A stretch of 25,892 nucleotides of DNA from Gemmatimonadota bacterium (GTDB lineage Bacteria; ARS69): contig JASLLL010000034.1 of NCBI GenBank assembly GCA_030747075.1, forward strand, positions 1 to 25,892, given 5' to 3'. How positions within the stretch are numbered: position 1 is the first letter of the stretch; every line of letters starts with the position of its first letter. Shown here one piece after another: positions 7,374-10,600 of this stretch. The notes under the pieces were generated by a model that saw only the letters and a list, made by a program, of their open reading frames with translations, did no database searches and had not been told where the DNA came from. Made by a program: the position numbers and the translations under genes.

Positions 7374-7544
7374 TCAGTCCTGGCCGGGCGGAGGATCACG
7401 GTGGTCCTCATCGGTGGTCTCGGGGGACCGAGCCTCGGTCCCGCATCCGGGCGCCATTCAGGTGGGCACCCCGAGTCGGGGGAGGATCACGGTCTGAAAG
7501 AGAATCCACGCGGCGATCAGCGCCAGAAAAGTCCACAGATCCAT
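7374..7544 (-). CDS. Candidate small membrane selenoprotein with in-frame UGA (56 residues if UGA is read as Sec)
   Basis: ATG at 7544 has GGAG 7 nt upstream. Translation gives MDLWTF, a hydrophobic helix (residues 3-22), PRLGVPT, then TGA at 7458-7460 as codon 29. The frame continues MAPGCGTEARS and an acidic, proline-rich tail to TGA at 7374-7376. The U-M-x-x-x-C spacing after a GVPT turn looks like a redox pair. From memory, small one-helix proteins with Cys at the matching place (LPRLGVPTCM-type) occur in several phyla; I could not check this. A SECIS-like hairpin follows the UGA at the proper distance. The protein would sit in the inner membrane with the Sec-Cys motif just after the helix; topology and role are unknown. 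If UGA is a real stop, a 28-residue hydrophobic peptide remains. It is divergent from metH. Confidence 0.6.
7424..7442 (-). promoter_or_regulatory. Bacterial SECIS-like hairpin after the in-frame UGA
   Basis: Reading the minus strand, GGGACCGA pairs fully with TCGGTCCC around GGC, or as a 7-bp stem with an AGGCT loop. The loop begins 22-23 nt after the UGA. Published bacterial SECIS rules ask for an apical loop about 16-37 nt from the UGA and a G among its first two loop bases; both are met. The AGGCT loop resembles the AGGUCU apical loop of E. coli fdhF. The hairpin is inside the extended reading frame, as expected in bacteria. Strong hairpins also arise by chance in GC-rich DNA. Confidence 0.55.
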
Positions 7545-7678
7545 GAGTACGCTCCGGTTCGGGAGGATGGCCTCCAACCCGGGGAGTATAGGCGAGTTTC
7601 CCGGGAGGGAACAGTGCTCCCTTGCCCGGCGGGAGATGCAGGCTTAGCCTTGCCGGGTTCTTCGACAGGAGGCTCCGC

Positions 7679-10600
7679 ATGACCGATTCCGCCATGAACC
7701 CCGCGTCTCCCTCTCCGCGTTCGGAGGCGGAGCTTCGGGATGCCTTCGCGCAGAGGATTCTCGTGTTTGACGGGGCCATGGGCACGGGGATTCAGGCTTG
7801 CGAACTCACCGCGGCCGATTACGGGGGTGCGGCTCTCGATGGATGTCATGAGGTGCTCAACCGGACGCGTCCGGATGTCATCCGGGGACTCCATGGGTCG
7901 TTCCTGTCGGCAGGGGCCGATGTCGTCCAGACGAACACCTTCGGCGGGACGCGAATCGTGCTGGCGGAGTACGGGCTGGGTGACGAAGCGGCGGAGTTGG
8001 CGTTCGCCGCGGCGCAGATCGCCCGGGAGGCGGCGGACGGGCTCTCCTCGCCGGAGAAGCCGCGCTTTGTGGCCGGTTCGCTGGGTCCGACCACGCGGGC
8101 CATCAGCGTCACGGGCGGCGTGACCTTCGGGGAACTTCGGGACGCCTACCGCGAACAGGTGGCGGGGCTCCTCCGGGGTGGCGTGGACCTTCTTCTGCTG
8201 GAGACGCAGCAAGACACCCGGAACGCCAAGGCCGCGCTCCTCGGCATCCGCCAGGCGATGGATGCGGAAGGTATCCGCGTTCCGGTGTCCGTCTCCTGCA
8301 CGATCGAGCCGAACGGGACCATGCTGGCCGGGCAGACCGCCGAGGCCTTCTGGACGAGCGTCTCTCATGTGCCGCTTCTCTCGGTCGGGCTGAACTGCGC
8401 GACCGGCCCCCGCGACATGGCCGACTCGCTGCGGAGTCTGTCCGCTCTGGCGACGGCCCCGGTCTCGTGCATGCCGAACGCGGGTCTGCCCGACATGGAC
8501 GGACTCTACCGGGAGTCTCCCGCCGACCTTGCGGCGGCGCTGGAGCATTTCATGGAGGAAGGCTGGCTGAATGCGGTGGGCGGATGCTGCGGCACGACCC
8601 CGGACCACATCCGCCGGGTTTCCGCCGTCGCCCGGCGATATGCGCCGCGCCCGATTCCGACGCACCGGGAGACACGACTCAGCGGGATTGATGTCCTGGA
8701 GTTCGAAGAGGACGCACGACCCATTCTTGTCGGGGAGCGCACGAATGTGATCGGCAGCAGGCGTTTCAATCGGTTGATCGGCGAGAAGCGATATGCCGAG
8801 GCCGCCGAGATCGCCCGGCGACAGGTGGACGGGGGCGCACAGATCATCGATGTGAACCTCCAGAATCCCGACCGCGACGAACTGGAGGATTGCGCGGCTT
8901 TCTATCCGGAGGTCCTGCGACGGGTGCGTGCGCCGGTCATGATCGACACGACCAGTGTGGAGGCGGTTCGGCTGGCGCTGACGGAGTGCCCGGGGAAGAG
9001 TGTCGTCAACTCCGTCAATCTGGAGGATGGCGGCCAACGCATGGCCGAAGTGTGTGAACTTGTTCGCGGGTTTGGCGCGGCTCTCGTGGTGGGGCTGATC
9101 GACGACGATCCGGACGGAGGCATGGCGGTCACGCTGGACCGGAAGCTGGCGGTCGCGCGGAAGTGCCATGCGGAGCTTTCCCGGCACGGAATCCCCCCGG
9201 AGGACATTCTGTGGGACACGCTGGTCTTCCCGGCCGCGACCGGGGACGCGCAGTATGCGGGAGCCGCGGGCGCCACCCTGGAGGCCATCCCCGCGCTCAA
9301 GCGGGAGTTCCCCGGGACGAAGACGATTCTCGGGATCTCCAATGTGAGCTTCGGCCTGCCCGTGGCGGCGCGAGAAGTGCTGAACTCCGTCTTCCTGCAT
9401 CGGGCGACCCGCGCGGGACTCGACTTCGCCATCGTGAATACGGAGCGTCTGGAGCGGCACGGGAGCATCCCGCCCGAGGATGTGGCGCTTGCGGAGGATC
9501 TCCTCTTCGGTCGGGGGGAGGACACGCCGCGTGCGTTTGCCGACCGGTACCGGGATGCGCTTCCCCGGCGAAAGCGCAGCACCCCGGGGGATGAGCGCCC
9601 CATCGATGAGCGCCTCTCCGCGTGTGTCGTGGAGGGGCGACGCGAAGGGCTGATCGCGGACCTCGATCGGAAGCGGGCGGACGGAATCTCCCCGATGGAG
9701 GTGATCAACGGCCCGCTTCTCCGCGGAATGGCGGAGGTCGGGAGGCTCTTCAACGACAACCAGCTCATTGTGGCGGAAGTGCTTCAGAGCGCGGAGGTCA
9801 TGAAGGTGGCGGTCAGCCACCTGGAAGCGGATATGGACGCCGAGGGCGTCGAGTCTCGCGGGACGATCGTTCTGGCGACGGTGAAGGGCGATGTCCATGA
9901 CATTGGCAAAAACCTCGTGGAGATCGTTCTGTCGAACAATGGATACCGGGTCGTGGACCTGGGGATTCGTGTCGCTGCAGAGCGGATTGTGGAGGCCGCG
10001 AGTCATCACCGGCCGATGGCCGTCGGTCTTTCCGGGCTGCTCGTGAAGAGCGCCCGGGAGATGGTGACCGTTGCGAGAGAGTTGCATCGCGCCGAACAGT
10101 CCACGCCGCTTCTGGTCGGGGGGGCGGCGCTGTCGTCGCGCTTTGTGGACGAGAAGATCGCACCTGAGTACGGCGGGGCGGTGCACTACGCCAAGGACGC
10201 CATGGCAGGGCTGGACCTGTGCGGAAAGATCCGCGCGGGTGAGGCGGGAGGTGCCGCTCGGCCCCGTGCGGGCGCGGGCGCGAGCGATCGCGTGGAGCTT
10301 CCCCCGCGGGAGCGTTCGGGTGCGCGAAGCGCGGCGATCCCGGTTCTCGCCGAGGTTCCGCAGCCGCCGGATGAGGATCGGCATCTGGCTCGGGCGGAAG
10401 ATCTCTCCCGCGTCTGGCCGTGGATTCATCCGCAGGCTCTCTATGGCCGGCATCTGGGGATTCGTGGCAGGTGGGAGGAACTTCTCGCCCGGGGTGACCC
10501 GCGTGCGATTCAGCTGGAGGGGGTCGTGGCGGAACTGATGTCCGAGGCGGAAGCGGGCGCCATGCGGACTTCCGCCGTATGGCAGTGGTTCCGTGCGGAG

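Follow-up and report, generated by a model that had tools for sequence, protein, structure and literature searches.

A Probable Selenoprotein of a Tiny, Single-Helix Membrane Family Encoded by an In-Frame UGA Gene in a Gemmatimonadota Genome

Results

A Small Gene With an In-Frame UGA on the Minus Strand

The window analyzed here, a stretch of 25,892 nucleotides from a Gemmatimonadota genome, carries on its minus strand a small gene whose in-frame UGA would encode selenocysteine (Sec; Table 1). With TGA given as U, translation of 7544→7374 yields MDLWTFLALIAAWILFQTVILPRLGVPT-U29-MAPGCGTEARSPETTDEDHRDPPPGQD followed by a second UGA, and the peptide after the Sec begins MAPGC. A preliminary description of the same DNA had proposed a small selenoprotein at 7374-7544, with a Shine-Dalgarno-led start, one membrane helix, an in-frame UGA with a Cys five residues on, and 27 codons to a second UGA. 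The open reading frame is real and lies on the minus strand, which that description had left unstated; the GGAG 7 nt before the ATG and everything from the UGA onwards were read directly from the sequence, and a helix was predicted by AlphaFold2. A plus-strand reading of 7374-7544 was rejected, as it gave an unrelated frame. UGA is the terminal codon of most other genes in the window as well as of the selenoprotein gene itself, and since most window genes end in this way UGA is taken to be a normal stop in this Gemmatimonadota genome.

Table 1. Positions of the selenoprotein gene and its parts in the window.
Feature	Positions	Strand	Basis or remark
Predicted selenoprotein gene	7374..7544	minus (7544→7374)	56 codons, Sec = codon 29, plus terminal UGA stop 7376-7374
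Start codon ATG	7544-7542	minus	direct sequence reading
Shine-Dalgarno GGAG	7552..7555	minus	7 nt spacing to ATG; direct sequence reading
Predicted membrane helix codons, residues 3-23	7476..7538	minus	AlphaFold2 on 43 members; hydrophobic in every member
Signature LP(K/R)LGVPT, residues 21-28, abutting Sec	7461..7484	minus	near-invariant, 65 members
UGA as predicted Sec, residue 29	7458..7460	minus	conserved TGA across homologues
Cys34, candidate resolving Cys (U-x4-C)	7443..7445	minus	Cys at U+5 in 72/106 members
SECIS-type hairpin GGGACCGA-GGC-UCGGUCCC	7424..7442	minus	loop begins 23 nt 3' of UGA
Polar tail, 27 residues 3' of Sec	7377..7457	minus	translation; tails of other members compared

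A MetH-like gene on the plus strand (ATG at 7680) lies in divergent orientation to the selenoprotein gene, with 7545-7679 as their common intergenic region. A sigma-70 promoter scan of 7545-7679 returned no match, although TATACT is present on the upstream side of the selenoprotein gene. Neither the window nor four family loci gave a match in Rfam scans.

Selenocysteine Machinery in the Source Genome

The source assembly (2.67 Mb, estimated 100% complete) contains SelA, SelB, detected as two stretches of one frame with 357 bits together (above cut-off), and a tRNA-Sec with the anticodon tca. The preliminary description had held that its proposal would fall in a genome lacking the Sec machinery, and both selB and tRNA-Sec are present. 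SelD (G000:C4:62873-63799, L138) has one in-frame TGA and is probably a second selenoprotein, which gives this genome at least one likely selenoprotein besides the gene in the window.

Homologues and Conservation of the UGA

Two further copies with TGA at the same codon were found among five genomes of the phylum (...NVILPRFGVPT-U-APPAR and ...NVVLPKLGVPT-U-TTQTR). A three-row profile detected the gene in distant families, in 29 of 290 diverse genomes, with TGA in every clear match. A scan of contigs from 84,980 species was then built on a tighter family alignment, the first alignment having been too diverse, and used the pattern [FVY][VIL]LP[KR]LGVPT with the following codon unspecified; 80 loci were kept, and the free codon after LGVPT was TGA in all 80. 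These loci came from Eisenbacteria, KSB1, Calditrichaeota, Geobacter and other Desulfuromonadales, Acidobacteria, Armatimonadota, Planctomycetota, Chloroflexi, Nitrospirota, Actinomycetota, Gemmatimonadetes and others. With TGA at exactly the same place in 3/5 phylum genomes, 29/290 broad-sample genomes and 80/80 named loci, the in-frame UGA is more than a chance occurrence. Run on the phylum to which an Acidobacteriota MAG belongs, a larger profile placed the family in 93 of 396 genomes; for that of a Geobacter MAG the figure was 166 of 395, and there all matches listed contain TGA.

Across 182 distinct members the Sec codon was TGA in 180, TGT in one and TGC in one, and never TAA or TAG. Tails had a median of 24 residues and terminated in TGA (50), TAA (27) or TAG (26). 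This mixture of terminal stops, set beside TGA as the only stop codon at the Sec position, speaks against a plain stop. The two exceptions encode Cys: L199 (= L155; TGT) reads ...RWVLPAMGIGT-C-MSGACKVPAP and L201 (TGC) reads ...KWVLPRFGIPT-C-MSNSCRGAARRPN (GIPT-C-MSNSC). Judged by their sequences, L199 and L201 form classical Sec/Cys pairs with the Sec members. Genome G525, which carries L199 and is the one Cys-form genome compared, was not among the SelB-positive genomes of its sample. Cys homologues at the UGA position, which the preliminary description had mentioned, thus exist but are very rare, with two seen.

Conservation continues past the UGA. Position U+1 is Met or Leu in 77 of 106 members, U+2 is Ser in 71 and U+5 is Cys in 72, giving the consensus U-M/L-S-x-x-C, and a Cys occurs somewhere downstream of the Sec in 100 of the 106. 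The U-x4-C motif singled out in the preliminary description is therefore typical of the family, but it is missing in the two closest relatives (L018, L019), so the U+5 Cys must be dispensable in at least some members. The acidic tail of that description did not hold up as a family feature: across the family the tail is polar, with a net positive charge close to the helix on average. Synonymous and non-synonymous counts in close pairs were very few.

Two sets of loci were unusual. In a Candidatus Eisenbacteria MAG (L057:653 onwards, the same gene as L048) the frame stays open for at least 65 codons past the UGA, as a C-terminal extension or fusion. L084, L107 and L113 are near-identical members from three differently named Acidobacteria MAGs, with flanks alike in two, which may reflect a recent transfer or a binning mix-up.

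Co-occurrence With SelB

SelB was above cut-off in 130 of the 290 broad-sample genomes, and all 29 genomes with a clear family member were among them (Fisher P = 1.1e-11, kinship ignored). For the Acidobacteriota MAG's phylum, 254 of 396 genomes had SelB, and these included 87 of the 92 TGA carriers (Fisher P = 2.5e-14, kinship ignored), and SelB was found in 44 of 50 named MAGs carrying the gene. The TGA carriers in which SelB was not found (five in the Acidobacteriota MAG's phylum sample, six among the named MAGs) are plausibly explained by draft gaps.

SECIS-Type Hairpin

Hairpin fit was assessed with a bacterial SECIS model (PMC13188914). A hairpin at -5 kcal/mol or lower was found in 93 of 106 members, compared to an average of 15 (maximum 26) with codon-shuffled tails and an average of 25 (maximum 31) when synonymous codons were redrawn for the same proteins. 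Stems vary in sequence yet remain paired across members; grouping by best hairpin makes this comparison partly circular, and it is the shuffled controls that provide the real test. Taken alone, the hairpin of the window copy is unexceptional for its base composition (z -0.27). Conservation beyond the UGA, set as a test in the preliminary description, is thus kept across the family both as peptide and as SECIS-type hairpin.

Protein Architecture and Topology

AlphaFold2 models of 43 members predicted one helix (H3-23), the first 20 residues having pLDDT values above 90, and a low-confidence tail. An excess of K/R on the C-terminal side was present in 104 of 104 members analyzed, which under the positive-inside rule would place the Sec at the cytosolic face. 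From this charge bias we consider a cytosol-facing Sec at the membrane likely.

Genomic Neighborhood

Neighbors were defined as same-strand genes recurring across loci, and the values below are raw counts given without a chance level. DUF302 proteins occurred at about 15 loci, mostly just downstream (about 15 rather than 17, because two assignments, L200 and L216, look misframed). ArsR regulators were found at 15 loci, with twelve directly upstream and several overlapping the selenoprotein start. Further neighbors were FmdB-type zinc ribbons (15 loci), Usp (14), thioredoxin (12), Pyr_redox_2 proteins (10; nearest to CoA-disulfide reductase, below its cut-off), RND pumps (9 plus 8), DUF72 (9, mainly KSB1) and OsmC of two types (8). 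The gene order was RND - PII-like - ArsR - [Sec] - FmdB - DUF302 in L136 and Trx - OsmC - [Sec] - DUF302 in L093. A recurrent redox neighbor lay within 1.5 kb at only 78 of 182 loci, and none of the recurrent neighbors is beside the gene in the window.

DUF72 was directly upstream in L058, L059, L061, L063, L065, L067, L072 and L103, mainly of candidate division KSB1. Neighboring DUF302 proteins have two conserved cysteines (GAC[NH]P, LLPCN) in L093, L116, L131, L136, L142, L150, L164 and L168; a thiol role of DUF302 itself is suggested by sequence. An assignment of the neighboring ArsR proteins as BigR/SqrR-type persulfide sensors was dropped, as one resembles BigR below cut-off and the 15 are mixed.

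Discussion

Identity and Proposed Role

We put the probability that the window gene encodes a selenoprotein at roughly 0.97, about as firm a call as can be made from sequence, whereas its function is a proposal. The interpretation as a small selenoprotein given in the preliminary description is supported, with none of the findings named there as refuting it observed, and the family is larger than was assumed. The gene very probably belongs to a new selenoprotein family that has some kind of redox function. The common theme of the neighbors is thiol, sulfur and oxidant stress, and it is on this theme that we propose a redox role; a role specifically in thiol or sulfur redox has somewhat less than an even chance of being correct. 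On the sequence evidence, the UGA after LP(K/R)LGVPT is read as Sec by the resident SelA, SelB, SelD and tRNA-Sec, with the SECIS-type hairpin just downstream. The helix would insert N-out/C-in, bringing the selenol to the cytosolic membrane surface. The Sec and the Cys five residues on may form a selenol/selenenyl-sulfide couple that would act at the membrane to reduce or scavenge peroxides, disulfides or reactive sulfur species, with thioredoxin or a CoA-disulfide-reductase-like flavoprotein regenerating it.

It is also conceivable, if unlikely, that the protein acts mainly in regulation, as a small membrane subunit whose redox switching governs a partner such as a pump or flavoprotein, and not as a catalyst. 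Small single-helix bacterial proteins are often regulators, and the very small size, the one helix, the low-confidence tail and the variable neighbors would all suit such a function; no single partner gene is conserved among the loci, however, which argues against it. A second and rather improbable possibility is that the selenol serves to bind metals or metalloids, making the protein a membrane-surface chaperone or sensor that passes soft metals to RND pumps. Selenols bind soft metals, 12 loci have an ArsR-family regulator immediately upstream and about 17 have RND pumps, but the pumps fit multidrug-type models better than the CusA/CzcA heavy-metal model, ArsR proteins are able to sense redox and sulfur besides metals and are mixed here, and the thioredoxin, OsmC, DUF302 and CoA-disulfide-reductase-like neighbors suit thiol redox better.

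That the UGA is a normal stop, leaving a conserved 28-residue membrane peptide with the remainder non-coding or a regulatory hairpin only, is very hard to maintain. It is the reading that gene callers would give and UGA is the usual stop in the window, but the Sec codon is never TAA or TAG in 182 members while each of the three stops is used to end the downstream frame, the U-M/L-S-x-x-C peptide is conserved past the UGA, the Cys homologues read through into the same MSxxC peptide, and the family is almost entirely confined to SelB-positive genomes. Insertion of another amino acid (e.g., Trp), by reassignment or selenium-free readthrough, would equally keep the frame open past the UGA but has a negligible chance of being correct, given that UGA terminates most other window genes and the selenoprotein gene itself, that homologues have Cys and not Trp at this position, and that the family is associated with SelB and SECIS-type hairpins.

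Novelty and Comparison With Known Systems

A 2026 review lists 119 prokaryotic selenoprotein families, and no single-helix family of ~55 residues with a GVPTU motif is in that catalogue (PMC13188914). In a 2006 survey, three Geobacter species were each listed with eight selenoproteins, and the GVPTU type was not among them (PMC1794560). NCBIfam and Pfam gave no match above cut-off to 65 members, PDB chains and plasmid records gave no match to the family, and no description of the motif was found in the open-access literature. The family, seen here in hundreds of bacterial genomes, thus appears to have been missed by gene annotation and by published selenoprotein catalogues, and it would form a new selenoprotein family that is unusually tiny and almost exclusively Sec. 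Although absent from the list of 119, it is present in 10 to 42% of genomes across three samples.

According to its authors, the deep-Sep method may miss selenoproteins without Cys homologues (PMC12013277). Since discovery methods lean on Cys homologues and annotated proteins, short and nearly Sec-only families vanish, and the present family exposes this blind spot, with its near-complete absence of Cys replacements making it a striking case. It also poses a testable question of function in Geobacter-type bacteria. We tentatively suggest, while leaning slightly against it, that this is among the most widespread bacterial selenoprotein families, a minimal membrane-anchored selenol redox device with which many phyla counter thiol stress or reactive sulfur, with an architecture parallel to SELENOK/SELENOS, and that it was overlooked because it is tiny and nearly Sec-only.

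The family resembles catalogued prokaryotic selenoproteins, many of which are redox proteins, in its UGA-encoded Sec, its link to SelB and its hairpin further along the message. Glycine reductase selenoprotein A (GrdA) was long thought to have no Cys homologues (PMC12013277) and, like the new family, is almost exclusively Sec, but it is an unrelated soluble enzyme component with a CxxU motif. Thioredoxin-fold selenoproteins similarly have a Sec with a Cys close by that may serve as its redox partner, and thioredoxin is a frequent genomic neighbor of the new family; the new family, however, has one helix and no thioredoxin fold, and its motif is U-x4-C, not UxxC/CxxU. The eukaryotic SELENOK and SELENOS are small single-pass membrane selenoproteins with the N-terminus outside and a polar cytosolic tail bearing the Sec. 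Their likeness to the new family is one of architecture only, with the topology of the new family drawn from charge bias. In SELENOK and SELENOS long tails separate the Sec from the membrane and place it close to the C-terminus, and the SECIS lies in the 3' UTR, whereas in the new family the predicted Sec directly abuts the LP(K/R)LGVPT signature and the SECIS-type hairpin lies just downstream of the UGA.
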